A program made the position numbers and the translations under genes. From positions 1,550,001 to 1,614,000 of the forward strand of contig BCJC01000004.1 of NCBI GenBank assembly GCA_001600175.1: a stretch of 64,000 nucleotides of DNA. The letters are read 5' to 3'. Below the pieces are notes generated by a model. It was not told the DNA's origin, searched no databases, and saw nothing but the letters and a program-made list of their open reading frames with translations. Shown here in pieces: positions 1 through 63,807 of the stretch; positions within the stretch are counted from its first letter, which is position 1, and the number at the start of each line of letters is the position of its first letter. This DNA comes from Erythrobasidium yunnanense. Lineage: Eukaryota > Basidiomycota > Cystobasidiomycetes > Erythrobasidiales > Erythrobasidiaceae.

Positions 1-74
1 TGCACTCACACTCTGCTCGCACTCTGCTCGCACAATAAGCTAATTGTTCTTCGTGTCATAGCGAACTACACCTA

Positions 75-20662: not shown

Positions 20663-23003
20663 ATGAGGAGCGGCAAACGCAGAGTCGCAGATGATTCAGA
20701 CGACGATGATGATGACATTGCATATACGAAGAAGAAGCAAGAGTATTCCGGCGACGACGATGACCTCCCTTCGTTCGCTGCTGTAGCTTCCACATCCTCC
20801 AAGAAAGCTGGCACAAGGACAAGCCTGCGAAAAGTTTCTGCTGCTGCTTCATCATCATCGACGTCTTCAGCTCCTGCCCCTGCTCCTAAGTCTGCTCCAG
20901 CTCCAGGTCCTGCTCCGGCTAGACGTGCCCGGCCCAAATCAACAGCAGCGAGCAAAGCAGCTGCTACAGCTTCGCAAACTGCTCCAAAGAAGGTCCTCAC
21001 TGCAGCGGAGCAGGAAGAACTGCGGAAGATCAGAGAAAAAGAGCGCGAAGAAGACGATTTCTTCACGTCCAAACGCGAGTTTACCTTCAAGACAGGCGGC
21101 AAGCGGACGGGTAGGTTACACCCATTCGTAATTCTTGTCACTCTGTACAATCTGACCGCGTTGCGATGCGCTGGCAGCCCTTGCCTTACCGAAAAGCCGA
21201 GTTGCGCCCTCGTCGTCTTCCCAGCAGCCTGCCAAAGCCAAGCCGACTCAGAAGATCGTCATCAATCTTGATCAAGAAGAGTACTCATCCTCTGCAGACA
21301 GTCATTCTGATTCTGGAAGCGACTCTTCGGAGACGCTAGCAAAGCGCAAACGAAGGAAGAAGAGCAAAACACCAGTCAAGCTCGCCTCGTGCGTCATACT
21401 TCACAGTGTCAATCTTGTGTCATCATGTACTGACTTCCGTCTTTGTCTAAGGCCGACGAAGCGAGCAGCCAGCTCATCCTCATCTTCCAGCTCAGACTCC
21501 GATAGCGATTCTTCAGCACAACGTCGCAAAAAGCGTGTAAAAGCAGAGAAGAAAGAATCATTCAAGTCGAACGGGGCGAACGGAGCGCATGACAGAAAGG
21601 GCAAAGGCAGAGCTTCAGATGGTGTGAAGGATGAACCGAGGAATAGGGAGAGGTCGCTTTCGCCGCTCGCACAGGCCGATACATTCGAAGTGGCTCATGC
21701 TTTGCAAGATATCCGAAGGTAAGCTAGCCCACAAGATCGCTCTGGCGAAGTTAGCTAATTAACCTGCAATCCTCAGGCATCGTCCGAGCATGGGCAGGCG
21801 GTACAACGTCTCTTCTGAAGGTGAAGATCTCGGGCAAGAAGCCAACGATGAGCTAGGTGATCTCGTCGGTATCGATGGTCCAGCTGGCCCACATGCCTCC
21901 CGTTCTCGATCCGCTTCGCATGCGAGAGGCGATTCCACAGATCCTCCCGGACATAATACGCATACCAGAACCTCAATGACGCCTTTTGCAGACGAGCATG
22001 AAATGACGGAGGAAGAGAAGGAGGCTAAATACGGGCCAGTTACGAGTATATCGGTTAAAATGGTGCATGATCCGAGGATAGTCGTTACGGACCAGAATAA
22101 GAATGGAGTCAAGAGATATACGGCTGCAATGGATATCAAGGTCCGGTCGGTAAGTCAGGCTGATCTAATATGCGTTGAAGTGACACTGACCTTATCATTG
22201 ACCTTCCTTATAGCGCGAGAACTTCGAACATGTCTTTGGCAGAGTCAGTACAGAAAAGGTACGTGAAGTTACTGCCATGCCGCAAGCTTTTGTCAGGCGC
22301 TGACTCCTAAGGTTCACAGGGTATTGCACGCAGCGACATAGTCATCACATACAACGGGCAGCGCTTATATAGCGTCGGAACACCACACTCACTCTCCATC
22401 CTCTCCTCAGCAAATTTCGAAGCGTATCCTCGAGAAGTCTTTGAATATGTGCAGCAACAGCGGCGGGAGCGAAAAGCCCGTGAGCTCGCACAAGCCCGAG
22501 AACATCAGCTAGAAAGCCTCGCACGAGTAAACATGCCAGGTGCGCAGCGGAATAGGGCTATCGACCTTGATGAGGCGGACGAAGGTAGACTTGCGGCAAT
22601 CGCAGAAGATGGAAATGATAGCGATATAGAAATGGTCATGCCGGGTGGAGGTCGTTTGGCTTCACTTCAGCCTGCAGGAGTGGCAAACAGGCGGGACGAG
22701 CGATCCGTATCGCTGGCCGCTGCAGATACAGCCAATGCAGGCGCATCAGCAGCTCCGAAAGAACCTGCTCTGAAAGTTACAATACGAGGCGGACCACAAC
22801 AACAGCTTAATCTTCGAGTCCCGCTCACGAAGACCATCTCTACGCTCATCAAGGCATACCTGAAGAAATTCAATCATGATATGGCTCTGTCGAGTAAATG
22901 TAAAGTCTTCTTCGATGGAGAGGCTCTCAGTCATGAATGCAAGCTTGAAGATGCGGATATCGAGGATGAAGATACGCTGGACATCAGGGTGCCGAGCTCA
23001 TAG
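20663..23003 (+). CDS. Rad60/Esc2/NIP45-family protein with two SUMO-like domains
   Basis: Genome-stability factor family (Rad60 in fission yeast, Esc2 in budding yeast) that works with the SUMO pathway and Smc5/6 in the nucleus. Six exons (20663-21110, 21178-21388, 21452-21718, 21777-22149, 22214-22258, 22320-23003) give 675 residues. The first half is disordered, with acidic, Ser-rich and Lys/Arg-rich tracts (DSDDDDDD; SSSSSSSDSDSDSS). The first SUMO-like fold spans roughly 395-490 (ISVKMVHDPRIVV ... DIVITYNGQRLYSVGTP). The second is at the C-terminus, about 598-675 (LKVTIRGGPQQQLNLRVP ... KVFFDGEALSHECKLEDADI ... DTLDIRV), the classic Rad60-SLD arrangement. A ubiquitin-like fold with a DxVD/E-type ending is clear. 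Identity at the family level is good; orthology to a named gene is not tested. Confidence 0.85.
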
Positions 23004-23852: not shown

Positions 23853-25564
23853 CTAATATCTGATCTGTCCATCGCCAACGTATGACCAATGGCTGAAGTA
23901 GGCATGCGAAGAGTTCTGTCCGTTGGCGAAGACGCCGACGAATGCACCTGTAGCACGTAGCACCGAAATGTTAGCCTTCGAGTCCACCATCGCTCGAACA
24001 GGTACCTACCGATAAAGTCTACAGTGACGAGCGCGGAAGAAGCGTACGCTGTGAGTAAGGTCGATCCAGAAGATGATGCTGAGAAGGAGTAGGTGGTTTG
24101 GTTGAGAGCCTTGACCTCGAAATCGACTGTCGCGGAAGCATTCTGGATCGCTTTGTATCGGGGCTCGGGAGATGTAGCTTCTGTTGCATTGAGTGGACGG
24201 AAGAAGATCTGAGCCGTTCCGTTGACAATTGAAACGCCCATATCGATGCGGTGAGCCAGATCGGTAAACACGGAGACACCCGCTTCATCTCCTGGGTTCG
24301 CAAGTTCCGGCGTCATGCTGACCTGGTATGTGAATAGAGTGTTGGTTTGCCGACGACCAATGAAGCTGAGACCCGGAATAGTTGCATTGGCAATTGTGGT
24401 AAGAGCAAGAGTGTTCTCGTGGCCGCTGGGCGAGACGACGTAGTCGGAGGCCTGGGGAATGCCATAGTGGCAAAAGTGTAATGGTACTTCGGACCCAGCT
24501 CCAAATGTATATGTATCATCGGCATCCACGAAGACACCAGCATGATCCACTCCGTTGCGATCTGCAGGTGGCAGAGGACCTGTCATGTTGCCCTCAACTA
24601 TCGACATGACAGGCCACCCTTCCTCTGACCAGGTCACGGGAGTAAGGACGGTCTCACGAGACATAGGCCCGTATTCGAAATCGGGGCCGGTACGACGCGC
24701 CAAAGCAACAGCCCACCACTTCTCGGAAGCGTCTTGGAAGATATCGGCATGCCCTACGGACTGAAAGTAACGGGTAGTGTTGGCATTGGTGGGTACGGGA
24801 TTGTTGGGGCATGAGTCGTAGGGACCAGTGAGATTTTTTGACCGGGCAATATCTACCTCATGGTACTTTTCGGTACCCCCTTCTGCAACGAGTAGGTAGT
24901 AGTAGCCATCTTTGGAATAGATATGAGGGCCTTCGGGACTGGCACCTCCCGTACCATTCCATAAGTACTGGAAGCCTGTGTTTTCGCCGCTCGTGAGGTC
25001 GACGGAGTTGAGACCGATGCCTGGCGGGCTGAAGCGGGCTGCAGTCGACGCAATGTGCACAGAGCCATCCGCATCCCAGAAAATGTCCGGATCAATGCCC
25101 GACACGTTCCTTGGACTGGGGATCGACCAAGCTGCATCGCTATAAGGATCTGTGGTTTCGAAGAGTAGACCTCCTGGTGGTCCCGCTTCCACATCGAAGG
25201 TAATGAGGTACATAGTTCCGTTGTGGTATCGCAAGGTTGGTGCAAACATGCCAAAAGTAGGAGTGGGAAGAGTGTTGAATGCTGGAATTTGCTCTGCTCG
25301 ATTGAGAGCGTTGGACACAAGCTTCCAATTGACGAGATCCTTGCTTGCATAGATGGGATGACCTGGCCAAGTTCCGAAAGTTGAGGACGTGCAGAAGAAG
25401 GTTCCATTCAACTCTGGCACAAATGTGCAGCTTGGGTCGGAATGGTACCCAGGGATTATGGGATTATTATAAGTCGAGTTGGCAGTGCCCTGACTCTGTC
25501 TTGGATAGATAGCAGCAGCGCTAGCTAGGCCAGCTAGACCGACTTGGGCGAGAAGGCTGTACAT
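23853..25564 (-). CDS. Secreted GH43-family glycoside hydrolase (xylosidase/arabinofuranosidase type)
   Basis: Two exons (25564-24010, 23947-23853) give 549 residues. A signal peptide is evident (MYSLLAQVGLAGLASAAA, cleavage near 18), and many Asn-x-Ser/Thr sites fit a secreted glycoprotein. The five-bladed propeller catalytic residues are visible: Asp43 in GYHSDPSC (base), Asp158 in GIDPDIFWDADG (pKa modulator) and Glu211 in SPEGPHIY (acid). The last third resembles the C-terminal lectin-like beta-sandwich of beta-xylosidases. The small last exon restores the expected end (IGAFVGVFANGQ ... HWSYVGDGQIRY); reading through the intron would give an unrelated basic tail. Likely role: release of xylose or arabinose from plant hemicellulose outside the cell. 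The exact substrate is not determined. Confidence 0.92.
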
Positions 25565-41519: not shown

Positions 41520-44230
41520 TCACCCGCTGGGATCATACTTTGCAAACGCCTTCTTGAATTTCTGACAGTCTGCAGCCTCCTCGTCGTCGCTCTTCGCGCA
41601 TGCTTTCCAGTCTGCTCTTGCCGGAATGCCAAGTATTAGCGACATCGTGGCTCTGTGAAGATGATTCATCAGACGCGATTTCCCGCCGAATCGTTTATAT
41701 TGCTTACCTGCCAAACTGCAGATTAAACCGTTCGCCCAGCTTGATGCGATGGACGAGCCGCATGCCGTCGCCCAGCGTAGCCATGAAGTAGTTCCCGCTT
41801 TCCTTGATGAGGTCCAGCTCCTTCATCTTATCAGCATCCTCTTCCTGCGATCCTAGGTCCAAGAAGTTATATCCCTCTCTTCTTCCCTCTTCCACGAACA
41901 AGCGCTTCGCATCTTCCGCCTGTCCTTTCGACACAGGACATATCTGAATATGTGCATGACCAGATTTACTGCCCGGCCCAGAGCGAGAGACTTCCCATGA
42001 TATAGGCACACAGCCGTATTCTGCATAACATGAAGCGAGCGTTTTCGTATAAGCTGCTATCTCGGCATGTATTGGCGCTGAGAGCTCGTCGGGCACTGCG
42101 GAAAGCGTAGGATAATGGGCGATCTGCATTGAGTATATTAAGGAGCGTTCCTTGGAGAAACAAGGGCAGGATCATGCTCACCGGTATGATCAGACAATGA
42201 CCACCACCGGGCACAGGAGACGCTTGATCATCCGCATCTGGTAGCTGCCCTTTCGGTAGTGTAAGGTATGTTTCCGCTCCTATGCTGGCTATGAGATGTT
42301 TTGTGACTTTCGGATTCGACAAGCAGAACCAGCACTCGTCGGCTGTGGTACATCACCACACAGCATCAGCTTCATGGACTTGAACTTTCGCTGAAGGAAA
42401 GGACAAACGACTTACGCGCTATTTCCTTGGCTGGTCCTTTGCCTTTATGGTCTCCAGAATTTTCCGCCATCGGACAGTCTTGTATCCAATGTCCGGAGAT
42501 GTTACACAACCGACACACATAGCTGTCAGGCGGCGGTGCGCGTTTCTTGCCGTCTCTGCTGGGTCCTCCTCGTGCATTGGCGGGCGTCTCGATCTTCTCC
42601 GGGCAGTCCTGTTGAAGTCCAATATGAGCGATCTGACATCGAGTGCCAAACGTGCCAAGAAGGTGCATACCTGAATGAAATGGCCGGGTACGCCACATAT
42701 CTTGCATTTGTACGATTGCGGAGGTTCGCCGTGTTTCTTCTTTCTAGCATCTCCGCCCTGTCCGCCGTTTGCGAAGATATAGCTTCCACCATTCTCATCT
42801 GCGTCATTCGGGTACGTCCGCTTGATTCCTCTTTGTCCATTCGATGATGAAGCGGAGGAAGAGGAAATGTCGAATGGGTAGGGTGTGACGTTACTTGGGA
42901 TCTCTTGAGATTGTTCTTTCGAGGAAGGAGAGATTGAGAATGCGTAGAACCAGCGTTGTTTGGTCGGGTTGCCGAATTGGCCCAATGATAGGAAGCGAGT
43001 TGCTCTCTGTTGTTGCTGCTGCTGTTCTCCATCTCCGCTGACCATCGAAGGATAGACGAATGGTTCTCTTTCCCAGAAAATGTTCTCGTTCCCTACAAAC
43101 GCATATTTTGGCCTTGCTTTATTCAGCAGGCCCTGTAAAGCAGGAATGGCTTTCTCCTCGATAGATGATTTGGAAATGGTCTCGCTAAGAACCTTCTCGC
43201 TGTACCGCATGACTTGAGACGGCCAGCTATTGAGGAGAAGAATGTCGACGTTGGCTATTGAGGCGGAATTCTGAAAGGCTGAGAGGGCGGAAGAAGTGAA
43301 GTAGGGCGAGTCGGCGGGTAGAAGGGAAGAGGATGTATAGTGTTCTAAGGAGAAAGAGCCGCCAAAGACGGCGAGTTTCAGGCCGGAGGAGAGGGTGAGG
43401 ATAGCTTGCTTGCCTGTACGTACAGAGTAGAGGCAGGAAGTCAGTATTGCATGCTTTCAAGTGACTCGAAGATTTGGAAATGCGATAGAGTTGATGGTCT
43501 CATATTAGATCAAGACTGTAAGCAGTGGGCAAGCCAAAGCAGCCTGGTGCATTGAGAACAAGCACTACTTCCGTTTTCCACCGATTGACTACAGCACTCG
43601 CGCCGGTTGCTATTGAAAAAGCCTTCCTGACGATATTTGCTGTGATCAACTGCAAGAACAGGTTTCATGCTTGCGTAGAGTGATCAAGCTGCCTGACCCA
43701 AAGTGAGGTTTCCCTCTCCTTTCGCGCGTTGTAAAGGCGCGGCTCTCTTTTCAAGTGTATTTATGGATACCCTCACGCACGAATGCAGAGAATATCCATC
43801 CTTAAACATCATTGAAGTGTGTGGAATTGGGGAGAGTTACGAAGGAAAGTCGGAAGGCAGCTCACCAAGGAAGCTGAGAGTATCAGTGACCTGACCATTA
43901 TCCTTCTGCGACTTGTCTAGAATGGTAGATGGTAGCAATCTATCTCCCTGATAGAAGTAGGTCGGGATAGGAAAAGCCAGAGATCCATCGAGCAAGGCAG
44001 CAGCTTCTTCATTGGCAGTAGTCTCTTCGCTCTTGAACAGATCTCCTAGACAGAGTATGCATGTAAATGGACCATGCTTGTCGTTGATGTTGCTGGCTTT
44101 TGCAACGAGACTGGACAGAGAGCCGGCGTTGGATCCAAAGACGAGGCTGTAAATCACATTGATACATCAGCTTACATCTTCCTCATCGTTTCAACGTTCT
44201 TCTTCCTTACACCTTGTCCTTGCTGGCCAT
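41520..44230 (-). CDS. DRN1: Drn1/CWF19L1-like protein (CwfJ domains, zinc knuckles)
   Basis: Cofactor family of the lariat debranching enzyme, acting in intron turnover in the nucleus. Seven exons (44230-44211, 44146-43866, 43413-42671, 42608-42416, 42342-42182, 42123-41708, 41652-41520) give 648 residues. The N-terminus is a metallophosphoesterase-like fold (KVLVFGSNAGSL, CILCLGDLF, LKLAVFGGSFS). Two CCHC zinc knuckles follow (CKICGVPGHFIQDC, CRLCNISGHWIQDC), the first split by intron 3. Then comes CwfJ domain 1 with DECWFCLSNP and PGGGHCLIIPIAHYPTL (HIT-like) and CwfJ domain 2 (SGHAHIQICPV). Intron 2 (43865-43414) is 452 nt, roughly eight times longer than any other in the gene. The gene is divergent from TRS130 across 122 bp. 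Confidence 0.93.
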
Positions 44231-52840: not shown

Positions 52841-53817
52841 ATGGGTCGAAGAACCACGCAACCGCTCTACAGCGCTGAGCTAGCCACTTTTCAAACTCCC
52901 GCCGCGCTCAAGAAAGAGCGCAAGCGATTCGATCGAGGCTTGACCAGATCTGAAGCAGAGCTTTGGGACTTTATAGCGCAAGGACTCGCCGAAGGTAGCT
53001 CGCCATCGTCTAGCGCGTCCTCGCCAGTCGTTAGTAGGAGGAACTCCTTTGCGCCCAGTCAGCCGGACAAAGGACTAGATGGCCTGATCAGCGATATTGA
53101 AGCTTTGAAAGTCCATGCAAGGGAAACGCAAAGATATGGAAAGCACTTCAAAGCGTATCTGGATGGTATGCCTCCAGTCCCCTGGTATGATAATCATGAT
53201 GGAGCGCGAGGGCGAGAAACAGATATGCATGCTTTCACCGGCAGTCACGGCCAGATCGCAAGCGTGCAAGCAGTCGATGCTTTCATTGATCCGAGGCTCC
53301 TGTTCCACGACGACCAGTCCGTGGCTGCCATTCAATTCCCAAGAAATCCGACCGAACTCTTGACATACACCGCTGAGAACGCCATACCTGCGCAATCCAC
53401 ACCTTGTTCTAATACCAAAGCTCCTGCTATGCCGAAGACAGGAACGAAGAGGCTGGACCAGCGCGCAAGGACGACTCAAAAGAAGAAGGATAACAATACG
53501 GTTGGGCCAGGGCGAGGCAGCAACAAGCGTGGTCCGCGAGCACCGTCTGCACCTAAAGCAGAAAGGACCGGCTGGCGTGAGTCGTATTCATTCTCGAGTT
53601 TCAAGGAGAGCCTATTTCGCTGACTTACAGTCCTCCGCCGCCGCCGGTGATGGTGCCCTGCCTATTACCCAAAGGCTGGAGATGCACCTTTCCTGGATGC
53701 ACCCGCACAATGAACAGAAAGACAAATGTCTATATCCATAGCCGTGAATCTCACCAAAGGCCGGCTGAAGAGCATAAAACCGCCAAAGCGTTTTATGTAC
53801 AACCGCCCCATCAGTGA
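52841..53817 (+). CDS. Array gene 1: subfamily A protein with single C-terminal C2H2 finger
   Basis: Two exons (52841-53576, 53675-53817) give 292 residues. The N-terminal ~110 residues share a pattern with the next two genes: a short leader (LYSAELATFQ), KKERKRFDRGLTRS, a Ser-rich linker with SRRNSF, and EALKVHARETQRYGKHFKAYLDG. I do not recognise this region as any known domain. A variable low-complexity middle and a basic stretch (KRLDQRARTTQKKK) follow. Exon 2 encodes one finger, RWRCTFPGCTRTMNRKTNVY then IHSRESH (C-x4-C-x12-H-x4-H), with the usual hydrophobic core spacing. The intron is phase 1 directly before the finger. Its acceptor is acccaaag at 53674; an acceptor nearer the donor would miss the finger. 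DNA or RNA binding is inferred from the finger only. Confidence 0.8.
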
Positions 53818-53987
53818 ACGCTGCACAAGGTACCTTGGTCACTAGGTCAAGCATCGTGCCTTTCCAAGTCACTATGATTTCCCTGTTCGGCCGCAACATA
53901 AGCAAGCATGCCTTTGACTAAGCTGAGCTTTTTGTTAGCTGGACCTAAGCCGTTCCAGCTAGCTCTATCGAACGACAACAGGTGACG

Positions 53988-54997
53988 ATGACGAGCAACT
54001 CAACACAATCGCTCTCGCTGTACAGCGCCCAAGTTGGCCTTACTCAGAATGATCTCGTCCTCCGGAAAGAGCGCAAGCGATTGAATCGAGGATTCACCAA
54101 ATTTGGCCAGGACTTGTACGACTGGGTAATGCATGACCTGGGATACATCGACTCAGGAGCTACGTCAACTACGTCCTCGCCAGGTCCAAGCCGAAAGAAC
54201 TCCTTTCAAGCCGTCGTGCCTAACAAAGGATCTGACGGCCGGATTAACGAACAGGAAGCCCTGAAAGCACATCAGCTAGAGACGGAACGATATGGAAGAG
54301 AGTTCAGAGCTCAACTCGATAGTGCGCGAAGAGCCACCCGTACTCAAACTGCTGGACACCCAGATCAGACGGTACCACCTTCTCTGCAATACGCCCAGAC
54401 CACGGTCAATCCTAGAGACCTTATGCAGTCACGTTATGCTCCAGCGTGGGAGACCTCGAACGTGGTACGGTCTTCGAGTTTTAGGGCTGCCAATGCCGGC
54501 CCTCCTCCCGCCCACGCTGCGCACTATAGTGGGACTTCTTCTTCGTCTATGACTCCTCAGATCACCCAACCTTTCGCACAGACAATTCCATCTTGGCAGC
54601 CAGGTCGCACTTCAGGGTTTACAGCAGTCAACGCAGTACCTCAAGCAATGTATACTACACGTTACGGTTATTCTCCTGCTCCAACTACGACACACAATGT
54701 GCCGCCATCGAAGCCTGGTCAGGCGAGCGGAATAGCTAAAGCCCAGCGGCAGAAGAAGGCCGAGAAAGTCGGCTGGCGTAAGCTACTTTTCTCTGTGGGA
54801 AAGATACTAGGCTGATCTATCTGTATATCTGCCTCCGTACGGGTCGGCGCTCACTTACAGGCTGGAAATGCACCTATCCCGGCTGCTCGAGCACGATGGC
54901 TCAGAAATACAACGTGTACAAGCACAGCCGGGCTCTTCACCATGCGAGGACAGAAGAAGAGCATAGGTCTGCTGAGCAAGCTTTCGTATTCCCTTAG
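53988..54997 (+). CDS. Array gene 2: subfamily A, single C-terminal C2H2 finger
   Basis: Two exons (53988-54777, 54861-54997) give 308 residues. The shared N-terminal region is clear: SLYSAQVGL, LRKERKRLNRGFTKF, SRKNSF with PNKGSDG, and EALKAHQLETERYGREFRAQLD. The middle is Ser/Thr/Pro/Gln-rich (disordered). The last exon is a single finger, RWKCTYPGCSSTMAQKYNVY then KHSRALH, followed by a 19-residue tail. The intron (54778-54860) has gtaagc and cttacag, is phase 1, and splits the Arg codon before Trp in the same place as in array gene 1. It lies head to tail, 170 bp behind array gene 1. Confidence 0.85.
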
Positions 54998-55266
54998 TGC
55001 TGGCTAGACGATATATTCGGCACGGCTGCAGACAACGAAGGGCGGCTCGAGGTCAGTGCAGGCAAGTTGAGTGAATAGTAGTCAAGGGTGCTACTTCACT
55101 AATCCCCTGCAAGCCTGAAGAATAGTCACTAGCCTTTGCATGCTGATGTCGACCGTCCTTTGGTACAGCTCGAAAAAGGCAAGGCTACCTTTCGAAGAGT
55201 CGCCTTTGTCAGGTCCTGCCGACCAGCAGTCGATAGCGCCAGTAGATATGCTGCCAACACACAACT

Positions 55267-56271
55267 ATGCCTATATCAAGACTATCAGAATACAGCACCT
55301 GCTTGCGATCTCTTCAAAATCCCGAAGCGCTCAGTAGGATACGCAAGCAGCTCAATCGAGACGAGAGCAATCCCGATGGAGGGATATCCAAGTTCATGAC
55401 GTACGACCTTTTCAGTCGAGGCAACTCCTACTCTTCCTCTTTACCCTCGGCAGCTACGAGCAGGAGGAGTTCCTTTTCTACGACTGCAGCCAACAAAGGG
55501 CAGATGAACGAGGCGGAAGCATTGAAAGCGCACATTATAGAGACGCAACGGTATGGGGAACACTTCAAGGCCTACCTCGATCTGGCGAACGAGGTTGCGC
55601 GCCTCAATGCGCAGATCCGTGATGACGAAGCGCTCGCTGCTTCTGAAGTCAAGAAACATACAAGCATGTCTGTCGCTCCTCGGGATGTCATGCCTTATGA
55701 TGTAAACGCTTGGGAGTGGCAAGATTGGAATCCGATGCAGACCAACATTTCTACCCCTCCTCCTCCAACGTCGGCCTCCACTAGTCAACTATCGGTAACA
55801 AGGCCTTTGGTTATAGTAAGCACGCCTCCATCGGCTACAAGATCACCTCCGGCTTCAGCGCCAAGTGGTGCAAGTCTCCCGAAGGCTGTGCGTAAAGGCG
55901 GGGGGAGGCACGCTACTCGCACTGTGCGAGCTCCTATACGACATCAAGAATTGTCACAGTCTCCGAAGCACAGGACAGTAGCCGCCGGACGCGTAGTCAA
56001 AGCTCAAGGCGCAACCACATCAAAACTTCCGCAGCAGAAGCTCGAGGTACCTTCTGATTCAAACTGCCGTAAGCTGCGTTACTATATGTCTTCAGACGCC
56101 GAGACGTACCATTAATATATTCTCAAATATCATGCAGGTTGGAAGTGCACTTTTCCAAACTGCACATCCGGTTCATTCTCACTGAAATACAACGTTTACG
56201 AACATAGCCGCAAGCTTCACGCTGGTCGTCGGACGGCAATGGAACATAAGACTGCAGTGCAAGTACCGTAA
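55267..56271 (+). CDS. Array gene 3: subfamily A, single C-terminal C2H2 finger
   Basis: Two exons (55267-56068, 56138-56271) give 311 residues. The subfamily A pattern is retained but diverged at the start (LSEYSTCLRSLQ, SRIRKQLNRDES), then SRRSSF, ANKGQMNEAEALKAHIIET and QRYGEHFKAYLD. The middle is Pro/Ser-rich and ends in basic patches. The last exon carries one finger, RWKCTFPNCTSGSFSLKYN then VYEHSRKLH, with two extra residues between the Cys pair and the first His (C-x4-C-x14-H-x4-H). The phase 1 intron splits the Arg codon just before Trp, as in its two neighbours. Function unknown beyond the finger. Confidence 0.83.
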
Positions 56272-56544
56272 CTGTACGGACGATTCGATACTTCTGCAAA
56301 TCTGCTGCATACTCGAGAGCTTGACTACGCAATGCATAAGCTAGCCCATGGTGTGGACTTGTGACATTGCCTTACACTTACGGCCTAGTGTATGCTCGTG
56401 GCGATCAGGCCCCCTAGCGATGAAGCCTCACCTTGTCTCTCATAAAAGATCCCCCTTTCGTCATATACCCTTTCTGCCATCCGCTCTTAATGGCCAGTCC
56501 TACGCTCACGCAACTTGAACGCTACTCAATCGGCACGAATCGAG

Positions 56545-57916
56545 ATGGCTTCTGGAAGCCAGCAACGCAGCCCTTCACCGCTCAGCGTCCTCGATCCCGT
56601 TAGCAGGCAGTTTAACCATGTCGATGCCGGCCGGGGTGTAGTGCACAAGGTCGCTCATGCTGGAGACAAACGTCGGCATAGTCAACTATCAGCTTCCTCG
56701 GCCTCCTCACGCTCAAGCAACTTCCTAGCGGATATCCAGAGGAGAGCTTCCCTTTCTTCACTCGACCAAGCGAAACGTCCCAAACTTCAGCGTCGACCTG
56801 CGCTGCAGCGTAATGCCTGCGAGAGCGGGCGATCTGTTGAGCCTGGCCGTTCACCTTCCAGACTGTCGGAGGAGGGTAGCTTATCTGTGCCTTCCAACCC
56901 TAACCCTGAGCACCCGGCCACAAATTCTGCCTGCACGAAGCGGAGGCAAGGATTGCATTGGATCACCGTCTCCGAACGTCGGCCACCCAGCACAGCGAAG
57001 CACCTCGGTGAGTGAGTTCAGCTGCTTTGCAGAAGCTTCATCCTGATGCTTTGCGCGTCGTCCTAGAATGGAAATGCACGTACCCTGGCTGCTCGATGAT
57101 TACTCGGCGATCGAAAGCTTTGGTATCGCATAGCCTGAAGGAGCATCCGGACAGGCCCGCAGAGCAGCACTACGATTGCAAGTCATTCCTTGTTAAAGCC
57201 GGGCAGACTGCATTGCCTCCTAAAGAACCCACCCTGCGAGACGTAGAGGGACAAGGTGAGCAGCCTTGTATCTAGTCGTACCTGTCTCCGGTGAAGCTGA
57301 GCTGCTAAGCTTGCCAGTCTGGATATGCGAAGCAGATGGCTGCACTTCAGGACCGTGGCAGCATGCCCGTAACGCTTCTAGGCACGCCAAAGAAAAGCAT
57401 GTAGACCAGGAACAGAAGCTACGGAGGGTCCCTCAGAGCAGCCATATGCGGCCTTCTGAGCGAGTCGCAAAGCGTCGGGTAGTACCAGGACAGGGTAAGT
57501 AGTGTTCTACCATCGTATTGTTGCAGTCTAAGACTATGGTCCCAAACCCCAGTCTGGATATGCGAAGCAGAAGCTTGTAACAGCGGACCTTGGGAACATT
57601 ACGAGGCAGCCTCCAAACATAGCAGAGTCAAACATCCGAATCAAATATGCAGCCTACGGAGACTGCCGCTCAGTAACCAAGCCCGGGCTACTAAGCGAAT
57701 ACCAGTACACCAAACTGTAGAAGGGCAAGGTAAGCGGTTTCCGGCCTTATTCCTGACAAGCGCACTGATTCGTATACCTCGCTAGTGTGGATATGCAAGG
57801 CGGAAGGCTGCACTGGCGGACCTTGGAAGTATTACACGAGTGCTTATAAGCACAACATGCAAAAGCATCAAAATCAGACGCACAAGTTACAACGGGTACC
57901 GATAGAATTGGTCTGA
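56545..57916 (+). CDS. Array gene 4: subfamily B protein with four finger exons
   Basis: Five exons (56545-57007, 57067-57255, 57318-57494, 57553-57729, 57786-57916) give 378 residues. Exon 1 encodes a Ser/Arg/Pro-rich N-terminus unlike subfamily A. Exons 2-5 each encode exactly one finger beginning at Trp: EWKCTYPGCSMI, VWICEADGCTSGPWQHAR, VWICEAEACNSGPWEHYE and VWICKAEGCTGGPWKYY. Each has two His in H-x4-H and, in the last three, the follow-on LRRVP, LRRLP or LQRVP. All four introns are phase 1. Exons 2, 3 and 4 are 189, 177 and 177 nt, so each could be gained or lost without a frame change. The second to fourth fingers are C-x4-C-x13-H-x4-H. Recent exon duplication is inferred. Confidence 0.85.
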
Positions 57917-58052
57917 GTAATTCCTCTTGTTCGCAGTGTGCTGATGAGATGCACATCTAGTCCCTTGATGTCGTCTCTATCAGGAGTGTCGACTGCTGAT
58001 CTCCGAGTTTCTGATTTCCTTCCCTTTCTGTATCGACAGCATCAGCCTTTCT

Positions 58053-59152
58053 ATGACTACGCAAAGGTCGAAGAGACCCCTTGATCACGCTGCAGCCTGG
58101 CGACACATGGACGCACTCCAAGCAGGGTCGTGCCGTATCTCACATCAAAACCACAATTCAGCAATGAGTCCATCCTACAATACAGTTCCAAGCTACCGCC
58201 GATACATGCAGCGTACTCAATGGCCTGACTTTCTACAGAACGAGCGGGCTCTGCTGGACTTGGCTCCGATCTCTGAGGGAACTGTGACACCACCGCAACA
58301 ACCAAGGCAGCGCTTCGATAGCTTCTCCGGCCAAGACTATTTCCCCCAATCTTCCCGACCCTCCCCTGACCTGAGCAGTCTGTCCTCACATGTGTCAGAA
58401 ACACGAGCTCTCCGAGCGGGAGAGTCGGCCTTGACGCAAAAATCGGCAACACCTCTAAGTGGTCGAGCTGATGGTGCAAAGTTGCCAAGGATCCTGCTGA
58501 GACCCACCAAGGGCCAAAGTAGGTCGTGCCTCGCATTGTTGTCATAGGAGACTGACCAATTTGCAAACAGTCTGGATATGCGAGGCGCCAGGGCCAGGGT
58601 GTCTCACCCGTGGTTATGGACCCTTCGTGTCCCAAGCTGGCGCTCGTCAACACTGTACGATCGTGCATCCTAACGGCGCCGAGCGTATAAGGGAGGTTAC
58701 AACAGAAGCCGAAGATACCTCATATGGTCGGTCTACTAAGAACGCGTACAAAGGCGGACTGATACGAATTGTACGAGACTCTCCGGTTGTCGGATCTGGC
58801 TTAGGAAGCAAATCTCGGTATCACTCTGGTAGGCACGAGAGACGTGACTCGATGTTTCAGGCTTCTGCGCCTCGCAGCAAGACACGGAGAACACCTCACA
58901 GAGGGTACGCTAGCAAGACAGAGATGAGCGACGCAACGCGAAGGCGACATGAAAAAGCCGCTACAGAAAGTAGGTGCAGGCTTTTTTGTGATAACAGGAA
59001 AGTGCTGACTGCCCATCACAGTATGGAAATGCGAGATGGACGGCTGCTCAGCCGGTCCTTGGCCTTTGAAAGATAGTGCTCAAGTACACTCTAAGCGCAA
59101 ACATCCTCAGCCCGCACGAAATATAAGGAGGGTATCACAGCACCTGGCTTGA
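58053..59152 (+). CDS. Array gene 5: subfamily B protein with two finger exons
   Basis: Three exons (58053-58518, 58571-58969, 59022-59152) give 331 residues. Exon 1 is a low-complexity N-terminus containing YNTVPSYRRYMQRTQWPDF and LLDLAPISEGTVTPP. Exon 2 starts with a diverged finger, IWICEAPGPGCLTRGYGPF then QHCTIVH, in which the Cys pair is spaced C-x6-C, and continues as about 90 residues of basic linker. Exon 3 encodes a regular finger, IWKCEMDGCSAGPWPLKDSA then VHSKRKH, and the family ending NIRRVSQ. Both introns are phase 1, immediately before Trp. It sits 136 bp behind array gene 4. Confidence 0.8.
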
Positions 59153-59514
59153 ACATCGTAGTGAATGACCCAAGCGGGCTGGTCGTTGCTGCTACCGATA
59201 CACTAGCCCGAAAAACATCCACTATCGACTCCGTTACCTTACAAACAGATATACGAATCGCAACTTATGCCATTTACATGGCGGAAAAGCACCTCGAAAT
59301 AAGATCGTCCAGGCGTGATTGTGTGTGATGCTCCACAGCAGGGTGTATGCACCTCTTCGACCGTAAGCTGTCGTCAAAACTCGCAGCCCAGTTGGCTCTC
59401 TCCAGCTGTCCCTTGTGAAGACCCTTTCTCCCGCTCATGTAAGGGACCGCCTCTATCAACAATATCGAATCAACTCAGCAGGACCTTGGTAATTACGCGA
59501 TACCGACGACAGAC
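59153..59514. other. Spacer inside the array
   Basis: A 362-bp spacer between array genes 5 and 6, the longest in the array. No intact finger or N-terminal module was found in it. Confidence 0.45.
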
Positions 59515-60399
59515 ATGGACAAAGCACAGCGAAGGTCCCATGCCTTGTCGCTTCCATCGGCTGTCCGAGCTTACAAGGAGCGGATGCTACATCGCCAAAA
59601 TCCACAGTCTCTGCTATCAGAGCTGCTATACCTTAGCATTAGATCACCTTCAATCGACGATTACGCTATTCTGTCTGGATACCTCCCTCACCTGCCGATC
59701 AACTATGCTCAGCATCAACCGGCACCAGGTCCAAGCCAAGGCATCTCGTATAATGACCTGTCCGCTATAGATATCGCAGGGAACACGCATGCAGATCAGC
59801 TAACAGAAAGCCATACTGAGCTTGAACGGATCGGCGTTGCCCGGCATGCACCGTCAGTCTGGCCTGAGATATGCCCTCAAACTGCTGGCGGGCAAACCGC
59901 CAATCAAGGACAAAGATACAAGGAGATTGCGCCTAGGCCATCATCGCAAGGCCAAGCCGACAAGCGACCTAGGTCTACATCTAGAGAGCAATCGCGCGAT
60001 TCTAGGAAAGATATGTCTCGCATTGGAGTACCTGCACAAGCGTCAAGAAAGAGGTTACCATCATCACCGCTGCAGGATCCCGAACAAAGGCTTGTAAGCG
60101 CTCAACAACATACCCAGGCAAAACGAGGTATGTGCCCGCAACCTTACATGAAACGCACGCTGACACAGTACATGCTAGTACGGCGCCGAGAGTGGGTCTG
60201 CAACCTGCCTGGCTGTGGTGCGGGGCCGTATACTCTGCAAGACAGCGCCAAAAGACACTTTAAAACGAAGCACCCTGGAGTGACCATCAGCGTCCGTAAG
60301 TTGTCGAATGATCAACATCAACCTCGACAAACTAGGTCGGCAACGAAGTTTAGTGATCAGACAACGGACGCTGCTCGCGCGCCCAGTTTCAGTAGATAA
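59515..60399 (+). CDS. Array gene 6: subfamily B-like, one finger, alternative end possible
   Basis: Two exons (59515-60127, 60179-60399) give 277 residues. Exon 1 has a helical start (AVRAYKERMLHRQNPQSLL, LLYLSIRSPSIDDYAILSG) and a basic linker. Exon 2 encodes the finger EWVCNLPGCGAGPYTLQDSA then RHFKTKH and the family follow-on VTISVRKL. The intron is a multiple of three and open, so unspliced reading would also stay in frame, but the branch point (cgctgac) and ctag acceptor support splicing. A perfect donor (gtaagt at 60296, phase 1) inside exon 2 could instead splice on to the degenerate finger exon at 60508. Confidence 0.75.
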   Translation: MDKAQRRSHALSLPSAVRAYKERMLHRQNPQSLLSELLYLSIRSPSIDDYAILSGYLPHLPINYAQHQPAPGPSQGISYNDLSAIDIAGNTHADQLTESHTELERIGVARHAPSVWPEICPQTAGGQTANQGQRYKEIAPRPSSQGQADKRPRSTSREQSRDSRKDMSRIGVPAQASRKRLPSSPLQDPEQRLVSAQQHTQAKRGMCPQPYMKRTLTQYMLVRRREWVCNLPGCGAGPYTLQDSAKRHFKTKHPGVTISVRKLSNDQHQPRQTRSATKFSDQTTDAARAPSFSR

Positions 60400-60507
60400 G
60401 CGAATCAGCAGCTGACTCAAACAGAAGCTTCAAGTGAGAGTGAGACCCTACATCTTCGTCAAACCGTTGCATGAAGGCTCGCATAGCTGACAATGCTTCC
60501 GCGGAAG

Positions 60508-60611
60508 AGTGGATCTGCAAGAAGCCAGGATGTCGTTTTGGATCTCCGGCTCGCGCAGGAAGTGCTTGTCATTCTTTCAGTATCAACATCCTGGCGAAGC
60601 CCTCAGTATAG
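60508..60611 (+). pseudogene. Degenerate finger exon
   Basis: A branch point (gctgac) and an acceptor (gcggaag) precede AG-TGG, as at other finger exons. The frame reads WICKKPGCRFGSPARAG, then a single His (ACHSF), after which it departs from the family and stops at 60609-60611. In the +1 frame the sequence continues with QHPGEALSIG, matching the family's second His and HPG. So a one-base shift has removed the second ligand. It may be a dead exon or a non-zinc-binding alternative last exon of array gene 6. Confidence 0.55.
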
Positions 60612-61675
60612 GTCTATGGTCGAAATCGAAGTGACCAGCAGATGTTGAAACAGCCTTAGCAGGCGTTAAGCAATCTCAGTAGGCGATGAGGGATGTCCAT
60701 GTCATGCGTTGTGTACCCAGTATGTTGCCTAGGTGTGTGTACGGTCAAATCTCAACAAACGTTCCTTCCGCCTACTTGCTCATATACTGCGAACAGCAAT
60801 CTACGCAGTCGCGAGGGCTCCTTACGCGCATCATGTGTACGTCCCGTGGCTAGAAAGCGTTACAGCAAAGTCTTGATCTCGCGTAAACAAGCTGCTAGAT
60901 ACGCGACGAGTCTTCAGTGAATCCAGCCAGAACCCTCCAGAGAAATGGAACTGGAATAATAACCAGATGCCTTGCGCTGATAGTAGCGAAGCACTGAAAC
61001 TTCATGTCTGCATAGCTGAGGATGAGTCTTGTCACGAAAGTACTGACAGGGACAGGCCAGGTCGAGGCACGAATTGGAAAGATAGTGTTGATAGACATGT
61101 CCGTCTGACCGCAATGCAGACCACGCTACAGCTGCAGACCGCCTTCCGGATTGGGCAGGATAGAGGCTTGGACCTGCCTAATGCGAGAATTAGGCGCGGC
61201 CTTAAGCAGGAGGAGCGTATTATCGATGTTAGCAGTGAAAATAAGGTGAAAGAATGAGCAGGAGAGTGAGAGATTTCAGTTGGCGTCGATGAGCAGCACC
61301 ATCAAGCGGTGATTTCTCGTTGTCGATCTTAAGCCTGCGCCAGCCGGTACAGCGTTGGATCTGGCGACAGCGACAGCGCGAGACGCCCAGCTCGTCGTTC
61401 GTACATCGTCAATTCGTTCCAGACAGTCGTTCTTGTCGAAACGGCAGAAGCTAGGTCTCACCGTCTGCCGGCGTGACCAAGCGTAAGCTAGGCTAGGCGT
61501 CAAGAAAGTGGTCTCATTCGTGAAGATAGCGTGACTGCCAGCTGGACGAGCCGCTTCATATCAATCTCCGACATTCAAGAACAACAACGATATCGCAGCT
61601 GGACAAGGTCTGAACTCTTTGGCGGACCGGCTCCGCTCAAGCCTGTCGAGCTTGACAGGAGCTGTCATACCCATC
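60612..61675. other. Long spacer upstream of the Zn2Cys6 gene
   Basis: A 1.06-kb region without a convincing gene, the longest gap in the window. A frame at 60967-61257 contains LHVCIAEDESCHE and, later, NWKDSVDRHVRL, which weakly recalls the LKDSA or LQDSA ... RH part of the array fingers and could be an old relic. The part next to 61675 is presumably the promoter and 5' UTR of the transcription factor gene. Confidence 0.45.
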
Positions 61676-63807
61676 ATGAGCTCACCCGCGTTGTCACATC
61701 AACAGCTGCATCCATCGTATCATCCTCATCCACCTGCTGCGATTACTCAGAATCCGGTCGAGTATGGGCAGCCGGCGCCAGCTTGGCTCGATACAGCTTC
61801 CATCGCCAGCGGACACCGAAGACAGCACAGCGCAGCCAGTACAGCTTCCCGCATGGCATCGCCTGGGACCTACGCTTCCAGCGAAAGAGGCTCGGTCATA
61901 TATGAAGAAGCTCAACCACATGCTGGCCAAGACTCTCGAGGAATCGCTAGCACAAGCATGGGCAAGCAAGACTCGATGTACAACGCGCTACCTACTTATC
62001 GATTTCCATCTGCACCAAGCCCTGCACCCTCGGTCAGCACGCCTCAACAATACTCTCCCTCCCATAGCCCTTCCTTATCTTTCCGGAGCATAAACTCTGG
62101 GTCATCACTTCAACAATATCAGGAGAATCAGCATGCTCTCAATAGGAAGCTACAGCCGGCTCTGGAGCTGGCAGGACCGCCTTTGCCAAGCATCTCGATG
62201 GCAGACGAGCAAGCTCAAGATACGCCATCTGCGCCATCAGTCCCGCGCTTTCAAGGCTACAGAGACTATGATAGTCGACCAGGCTTTCCGGGCGGTCTTG
62301 TCTCGACGGCCGAGGGAGAGCCATACGACGTGATCACGCCAGGCAGTCAAGAAGCCAACCATCCGACATCATCAACAACCGAATACCTTGGTGTCAGCTA
62401 TGCTCCGACGCCCGAGATGTATCAAGGCCCAATGGTACCTACTGCACCGGCAGTTGTGGCCTCTCCTGGCCTTACTGGTTCTGCTCCTGCAAACCCAGTT
62501 GGGTATACTACCTATTCGTCTTCCACGACGCATACTCATACTACCTCCTCATCTACTTTTGTTCCTTCCTCTGCGTACCTACCCTCCAAGTCTGCATTTA
62601 GCGGCATGTCACCTGCTCTCCCCGCCTCGACTGGTATGGCACCACGGTCAGCACCTTCGACACCTCTGGGCAGACAAGATGCTCGTTTCTTGAGTCATAC
62701 AAGAGCATGGACGACACCGGAACCTCTAGTCTCGTCGTACTTTCCGTCCCATGGAAGTCCGTCTCCGCTCATTGCGCAGTCGCCAGCGACCCTCACGAGC
62801 TCGGTACCTCCCTCCTTTCGGCTTAATGCCTCGACTTCTTCATCCTCTTCTTCTTTCTATCCTTCGCACGATCTGGAGAAGTTTCACTTGTCGAGCTCGA
62901 CTGCCTCGTCGAAGCCAGAAGAGGACTACATTCCGTATGCACGACCAGTCGGCCCAAAAAGCAAGCGCGCACCTCCTCCTTTTGCACCTACAACTCCAGT
63001 CATGCATGTACCTATGAAGAAAGTGAAGAGGGAGAAGACGACTCCCAAGATAACAAAATTGCCGAGTCCGGCAGCGGGCAGCAGTGTTGCTGGTTCGCCG
63101 GCGCCTTCAGCTCAGAATGAGGAGGAAGAGAAACCTACAAGGGTCAAGATCGCTTGCAATGCATGTAGAAAGACGAGATTGAAGTGTAAGTGACGAAATT
63201 TGCCGAACTCCTTTGAAGGAGCTAGACTGACTGGTCGATGGATGCAGGTGACGGCCTTCAGCCATGTACATCCTGCATCGACAAATACCTCAAAATGAAC
63301 CCTCAAGACTTGGAACGTGAAGCAGGAGCAAGGCGGCACATCGAAGCTACGAATTCTTGTGTATACGAAGCGACTGTCCGTCGACGAGGCAAAGGCAAGA
63401 AGACTTTGGCTAAGGAAAGATATCAGATAGATGGAAGAAGCATGAGTCCCAGTTCCATTGGGAGCCCGAATATCCTTGGCCCGTCCGTTTCCTCTCTCTC
63501 GTCATCCATGAATGGAGGAATCCATGGAGACGAAAGATACCCAGCATATATGCCCCATTTCGTCAGTAGTCAGCCCTCACCTGCTGTGCAGGACTATCAC
63601 CCTTCTCCGTACCTATCGCCGCATTCTTACCCTCAGCATCAGCAGCATTCCCCGCATCAATATCATCAACACTCTCAGTACCCTTCTAGTCAGCATCTCC
63701 AACCTACGTATCCATCGCATAACATGTATGGGTTAGGAGTCGGGCTAGACCACAGTGGTCGCCATGGCTCATCTGAGCACGGAAGTGCAGCAGCAGATGA
63801 TTACTGA
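61676..63807 (+). CDS. Zn(II)2Cys6 transcription factor with extended cysteine spacing
   Basis: Two exons (61676-63185, 63248-63807) give 689 residues from the first in-frame ATG. The first 490 residues are disordered and rich in Ser, Pro, Thr and Gln, with a basic patch (MKKVKREKTTPKITK) before the DNA-binding domain. The cysteines are at about 494, 497, 504, 510, 513 and 541: ACNACRKTRLKCDGLQPCTSC followed by 27 residues to NSCVYEATVRRRGKGKK. The phase 1 intron splits Cys504. Zn2Cys6 domains usually have 6-9 residues before the last Cys, so this spacing is odd. The tail is rich in His, Gln, Ser, Pro and Tyr. No fungal-specific regulatory domain follows. A nuclear DNA-binding regulator is inferred from the domain. 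Confidence 0.85.

Follow-up and report, generated by a model that had tools for sequence, protein, structure and literature searches.

A mostly old tandem array of six predicted genes with isolated C2H2-type fingers in the basidiomycete Erythrobasidium yunnanense

An array of six finger genes

A 64,000-nucleotide stretch of the Erythrobasidium yunnanense genome (contig BCJC01000004.1, positions 1,550,001 to 1,614,000; hereafter the window, in whose numbering all positions are given) carries at 52841-60611 six + strand genes, arranged head to tail, whose predicted products contain ten zinc-finger-like segments with a complete set of ligands in the order Cys-Cys-His-His (10/10). The array is real and mostly old; its domain is of a familiar kind, and the gene architecture that houses it is less usual. 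From the sequence we consider it slightly better than an even chance (roughly 0.55) that these genes encode basic nuclear factors, with isolated C2H2 fingers that would bind nucleic acid, and form an old array shaped by birth and death. The phase-1 finger exons, the two classes of finger (A and B, defined below) and the old age of most copies are newly described here. The gene models, built by hand splicing, place one to four finger exons after a long first exon and bear out the original prediction, made from the letters of this DNA, of six + strand genes with spacers of 136-362 bp; the successive spacers are 170, 269, 273, 136 and 362 bp. The first exons are open over 154-267 codons ahead of the fingers.

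Gene 1, 52841-53817 (+), exons 52841-53576 and 53675-53817: one class A finger at 53677-53754; 292 aa; hand-spliced with a doubtful acceptor
Gene 2, 53988-54997 (+), exons 53988-54777 and 54861-54997: one class A finger at 54863-54940; 308 aa
Gene 3, 55267-56271 (+), exons 55267-56068 and 56138-56271: one class A finger at 56140-56220; 311 aa
Gene 4, 56545-57916 (+), five exons: class A finger at 57069-57146 and class B fingers at 57320-57400, 57555-57635 and 57788-57868; 378 aa
Gene 5, 58053-59152 (+), three exons: aberrant class B finger (C-x6-C-x16-H) at 58573-58668 and class B finger at 59024-59104; 331 aa
Gene 6, 59515-60399 (+) in a two-exon model, or to 60611: class B finger at 60193-60273; 277 aa
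Truncated finger exon, 60508-60611 (+): W-x-C-x4-C retained, His pair gone; possible third exon of gene 6 in the alternative model

A seventh gene at ~60877-61257, where an open reading frame (ORF) is loosely finger-like, was considered and rejected, the finger profile listing nothing there.

Ligand pattern of the fingers

In a six-frame search of the 64 kb, the strict pattern W-x-C-x4-C-x(12..14)-H-x4-H has nine matches, all within the array, and is absent from 100/100 Markov-1 shuffled windows. In the tenth finger, the first of gene 5, the Cys spacing is C-x6-C and the first His comes only after 16 residues, which makes zinc binding there doubtful. Across the ten fingers the distance from second Cys to first His is 12 residues in three, 13 in six and 16 in one, whereas H-x4-H is invariant (10/10) and C-x4-C nearly so (9/10). 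The form initially described (C-x4-C, once C-x6-C, with 12-14 residues and H-x4-H) accordingly fits nine fingers and fails in spacing for the tenth. A looser pattern finds 11 places, namely the ten array fingers and one minus-strand site (24978-25067) that overlaps the ORF of a GH43 enzyme in another frame; in shuffled windows its mean is 0.06 matches and its maximum 1. A profile built from nine fingers, with the first finger of gene 5 omitted, recovers its own members at 48-62 bits, by construction, and gives 6.9 bits for the omitted finger and at most 7.7 bits elsewhere in the window. The truncated finger (60510) reaches 12.3 bits (independent E-value 0.02) with this profile, in agreement with the earlier count of ten intact fingers and at least one decayed one.

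Assignment to the C2H2 kind

When a ten-finger profile was compared with PDB sequences, the best match was GLI (E 1.3e-10 for five fingers summed; best single finger 0.022), followed by YY1 (2e-5) and ZIC3 (8e-4), and, among others, SWI5, Sp1, KLF5 and TFIIIA. All 11 matches with E < 0.1 are C2H2 finger proteins, five of them as judged by the alignment and six by the molecule name. We read the finger as a C2H2 finger with a Trp ahead of the first Cys and one extra loop residue in six cases; the label ‘unusual’ that it had first been given is not supported, in view of the GLI and YY1 matches. A PROSITE-like C2H2 pattern fits 2/10 fingers. In the AlphaFold2 model of a class B exon, residues 16-26 form a helix, and block-mean predicted local distance difference test (pLDDT) values are 89-91 over residues 1-30. 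Strand marks given by DSSP in this model are limited to two-residue pieces at 2-3 and 34-35, the latter in the LRRV-like tail, and on our reading of the model these two pieces may pair. Foldseek returned three matches to the finger model, all C2H2 structures (3/3), at E 4.6-8.8, none of them significant. Two other Pfam families were tried and set aside: OrsD (PF12013), which gives 12.1 bits for gene 4 at a cut-off of 26.6, and YdjO, which gives 26.6 bits for gene 4 at a cut-off of 27 and a weak 12.2 for gene 5. We take the YdjO near-match to be a chance sharing of W-x-C-x4-C.

Two classes of finger

The fingers fall into two classes that are split at 100/100 support in a tree of all ten. Class A takes in the fingers of genes 1-3 together with the first of gene 4; the spacing from second Cys to first His is 12 residues, except in gene 3 with 13, and the tail, AEEH-like, contains a third His. 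The remaining six fingers form class B: here the loop contains GP and an aromatic residue, the same spacing is 13 residues in all but the first finger of gene 5, where it is 16, and the tail is loosely LRRV-like. An LRRV-like tail had been predicted as frequent; it is seen, loosely, in these 6/10 fingers, and the other four have a different tail in common. Gene 4, with one class A and three class B fingers, joins the two halves of the array. The first fingers of genes 4 and 5 (G4a and G5a, where fingers are lettered in order within each gene) are long branches in the tree, and their exact placement is unsure.

Finger exons and splice joints

Eleven introns were placed in the models, ten before ligand-complete fingers and one before the truncated finger, and all are in phase 1 (11/11). 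Of the ten intact fingers, nine have the acceptor AG exactly 2 nt ahead of their Trp codon and the remaining one, in gene 6, has it 14 nt ahead; this position can be read directly from the DNA. Finger exons that are internal to a gene would begin and end in phase 1, and could therefore be copied or lost without a frameshift. They are, from the hand-spliced models:

Gene 4, 57067-57255 (+): internal finger exon, phase 1-1
Gene 4, 57318-57494 (+): internal finger exon, phase 1-1
Gene 4, 57553-57729 (+): internal finger exon, phase 1-1
Gene 5, 58571-58969 (+): internal finger exon, phase 1-1
Gene 6, 60179-60295 (+): internal finger exon, phase 1-1, if the third exon is used

Gene 4 contains a tandem duplication at 57249-57876 (+) whose repeat unit is an intron plus an exon: 57249-57643 and 57488-57876 match at 58%, and the finger cores (51 nt) are 235 and 233 nt apart. 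The splice joint of gene 1 is doubtful. CTTACAG occurs in the introns of both genes 1 and 2 and is the acceptor in gene 2, whereas in gene 1 there are 44 nt (53631-53674, +) between it and the acceptor that keeps the finger in frame. Splicing of gene 1 at CTTACAG would give a frameshift with a stop seven codons on, and in the gene 1 model AAAG at 53674 has to serve as the acceptor. Similarly, AAG has to be the acceptor of the truncated finger (60508).

It is possible, at odds well short of even, that the locus reflects exon shuffling in a fungus, in which one finger per symmetric phase-1 exon has been copied within and between neighbouring genes to give a lineage-specific nucleic-acid-binding set that the standard zf-C2H2 model does not see. 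If so, the locus would show how a fungus builds and remixes zinc-finger proteins finger by finger, a route best known from exon shuffling in animals.

The remaining parts of the proteins

The predicted products are small (277-378 residues), rich in low-complexity sequence and basic in all six models (isoelectric point 10.0-10.4), with one to four well-separated fingers toward the C-terminus. Genes 1-3 have an N-terminal block of ~100 residues in common, with an R-[RK]-x-S-F site:

52841-53167 (+): N-terminal block of gene 1
53988-54323 (+): N-terminal block of gene 2
55267-55581 (+): N-terminal block of gene 3

By blastp these N-termini align with one another at 47% and 43% over ~100 residues and at 32% over 203 (E 5e-20 to 9e-26), and the block contains an EALKxHxxETxRYGxxFxAxLD-like segment that is predicted to be helical; it has no Pfam match. 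No convincing relationship links the N-termini of genes 4-6 at the sequence level; their best match to anything, at E 0.001, lies in Ser/Pro-rich sequence and was obtained with composition correction switched off. The two N-terminal groups that had been proposed, a clear one for genes 1-3 and a mixed one for genes 4-6, are recovered by these comparisons. Sites of the form R[R/K]xS[F/L/M], resembling those of basophilic kinases, occur in five of the six proteins (genes 1-5) and at the same place in genes 1-3; they are so short that they can occur by chance.

Age and constraint

Between the N-terminal blocks of genes 1-3, the proportions of synonymous (pS) and non-synonymous (pN) differences are 0.56-0.65 and 0.35-0.42, and the corresponding corrected distances, dS and dN, are 1.0-1.5 and 0.47-0.61. 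Amino-acid change has been slower than synonymous change, with pN < pS in 3/3 N-terminal pairs and in 45/45 finger pairs. For 23/45 finger pairs dS is inestimable, and the lowest values, which look younger, are those of G4d-G5b (0.59) and G4b-G4d (0.65), over 29 codons. Such high or saturated synonymous change indicates that most duplications are old, without fresh expansion. Similarity between units at the DNA level is 58-70% over 108-400 bp, with a single 28-nt match at 89%, and nothing points to recent copying or homogenisation. A recent or ongoing expansion is rejected for most copies on the dS values, G4d-G5b and G4b-G4d being the exceptions; the proposal of a locally expanding family stands as to one family and local tandem duplication, and is not supported as to the present tense. 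In a codon-usage test the annotated frame ranks top of six for genes 1, 2, 4 and 6.

Functional interpretation

Under the favoured reading, of nuclear factors with isolated nucleic-acid-binding fingers, the array would have grown through whole-gene duplication together with duplication of an intron-plus-exon finger cassette inside gene 4. Its products may be nuclear factors in which isolated fingers and basic flanks bind DNA or RNA, with a Ser-rich N-terminal part that could serve regulation or partner binding, in genes 1-3 by way of the conserved, partly helical block with its R-[R/K]-x-S-F site. The two finger classes might then give the paralogues different targets. This reading draws on the ligand pattern and profile, the phase-1 introns with their acceptor positions, the intron-plus-exon repeat of gene 4, the C2H2 matches among PDB sequences and in Foldseek, the predicted helix, the split into two classes, pN < pS in all pairs and the high isoelectric points.

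A number of observations weigh against this reading. The splice sites were chosen by hand to hold the fingers in frame, and the shared intron phase is a predicted one. Pfam gives no family at cut-off for any of the six proteins, zf-C2H2 (PF00096) reaching 11.4 bits for gene 4 at a cut-off of 25.2 and being unlisted for the other five proteins and for the ten fingers searched singly; nor does NCBIfam match any of the ten fingers. In the finger model, the hairpin of two strands that usually precedes the helix is not assigned by DSSP. For the N-terminal block common to genes 1-3, PDB contains no sequence relative, and its structural model is poor (predicted template modelling score 0.24). For G4d-G5b, pN and pS are nearly equal (0.40 vs 0.41). 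The codon test gives 0.057 for the annotated frame of gene 3 vs 0.069 for a reverse frame, and 0.009 for that of gene 5 vs 0.028 for another forward frame, while all six genes score under the five training genes; for genes 4-6, the fingers and the open first exons are the main grounds for taking them as coding. Finally, the fingers are single or stand 32-101 residues apart (gaps of 37, 32, 32 and 101), and TGEKP is absent.

With isolated fingers and no TGEKP, cooperative reading of DNA by several fingers is unlikely and binding to protein is possible. A tentative alternative, the best placed of the rivals, is accordingly that the fingers are protein-protein modules that dock paralogues or other nuclear proteins and make no direct contact with nucleic acid. 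The isolation of the fingers is in its favour, as is the behaviour of the usual DNA-contact positions of the helix: diversifying selection there was considered and rejected, their variability (0.88 vs 0.82 for other helix positions, four positions each) showing no clear excess. The strong positive charge of all six proteins argues for nucleic acid instead, and so do the nearest profile matches, the fingers of GLI, YY1, ZIC3 and Sp1/KLF, which bind DNA.

It is unlikely that the array is a relic in decay, in which several genes no longer yield a finger protein. Such a state would be consistent with the truncated finger at 60508-60611, with the aberrant first finger of gene 5, with the weak codon signal in genes 3-6 and with the gene 1 joint, where the acceptor common to gene 2 leads to a frameshift and stop. 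Against decay, ten fingers retain all four ligands and are preceded by open first exons, and pN is below pS in every pair tested.

Comparison with known systems

The array fingers resemble C-x4-C C2H2 fingers (GLI, ZIC, YY1, Sp1/KLF, TFIIIA) in ligand order, in C-x4-C (9/10), in a spacing of 12-13 residues (9/10), in H-x4-H (10/10) and in the predicted helix around the first His. They differ from these fingers in the Trp two residues ahead of the first Cys, in the extra loop residue of six fingers, in standing isolated without TGEKP and in the lack of a zf-C2H2 match at cut-off.

In mammalian KRAB proteins the fingers sit together on one long exon; the present array has far fewer fingers, each on a separate exon. 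An arms-race array of that kind, recognising transposons or other invaders with fast turnover, is very improbable here. In its favour, the tandem arrangement, with fingers born and decaying, resembles the mammalian KRAB/C2H2 clusters, described in PMC2443715 and PMC7289599 as tandem with finger gain, loss and degeneration. Against it, the copies are mostly old, change at the contact positions is not clearly in excess, the array proteins lack runs of adjacent fingers joined by TGEKP-like linkers, and Pfam reveals no KRAB-like effector domain (no family for genes 1, 2, 3 and 6; for genes 4 and 5 only non-KRAB matches below threshold).

In the tCWCH2 motif (Zic/Gli, PacC, Zap1), described in PMC2837044, each of two adjacent fingers has a conserved Trp that lies between its two Cys. 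The array fingers are likewise C2H2 with a conserved Trp, which however lies ahead of the first Cys by two residues in 10/10. Basidiomycete C2H2 families have been surveyed in PMC12295980, which reports some tandem duplicates, so that fungal C2H2 genes in tandem are a point of likeness; the survey used PF00096 and dropped proteins without C-x2,4-C-x12-H-x3,4,5-H. The exact 12-residue spacing is present in 3/10 array fingers and, together with the lack of a Pfam match at cut-off, suggests that genes such as these could escape a survey of the kind outlined there. With fingers below the Pfam cut-off and 7/10 lacking the exact survey spacing, fungal zinc-finger catalogues may be incomplete. The available portion of PMC4469406 does not mention C2H2, and among titles and abstract openings in the literature no such array in a fungus was found. 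Searches of viral contigs with a five-finger alignment gave 7 pattern matches and searches of prokaryotic genome contigs with one gene 4 finger exon gave 190, none of them upheld by tblastn, with genes 1-3 outside both searches.

Neighbouring genes and other observations

The genes surrounding the array are ordinary, as had been predicted. One encodes the largest RNA polymerase I subunit, for which rpa1 is the top hit among PDB sequences (3e-213) and RPA190 the next; others encode glutathione synthase, the GH43 enzyme, POM152, TRAPPC10 and an alpha-amylase-family enzyme. POM152 and the polymerase match would fit a fungal origin. A search of the 64-kb window for Rfam families and tRNA genes found none. 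As a candidate shared promoter element, the 8-mer CCCTTTCT occurs in 3/6 upstream regions (250 bp) vs 0.1 expected, and was set aside as too weak; no 9- or 10-mer came up. The next gene after the array, at 61535-63804 (+), contains CNACRKTRLKCK, then CTSC and RRRGKGKK in the following ORF. Neither ORF piece matched Pfam, and the gene looks to us like a Zn2Cys6-type regulator. Farther from the array, an ORF at 42422-43456 (-) has a CCHC zinc knuckle (PF13696), and one at 22311-23000 (+) ends in a SUMO-like (Rad60-SLD) domain.

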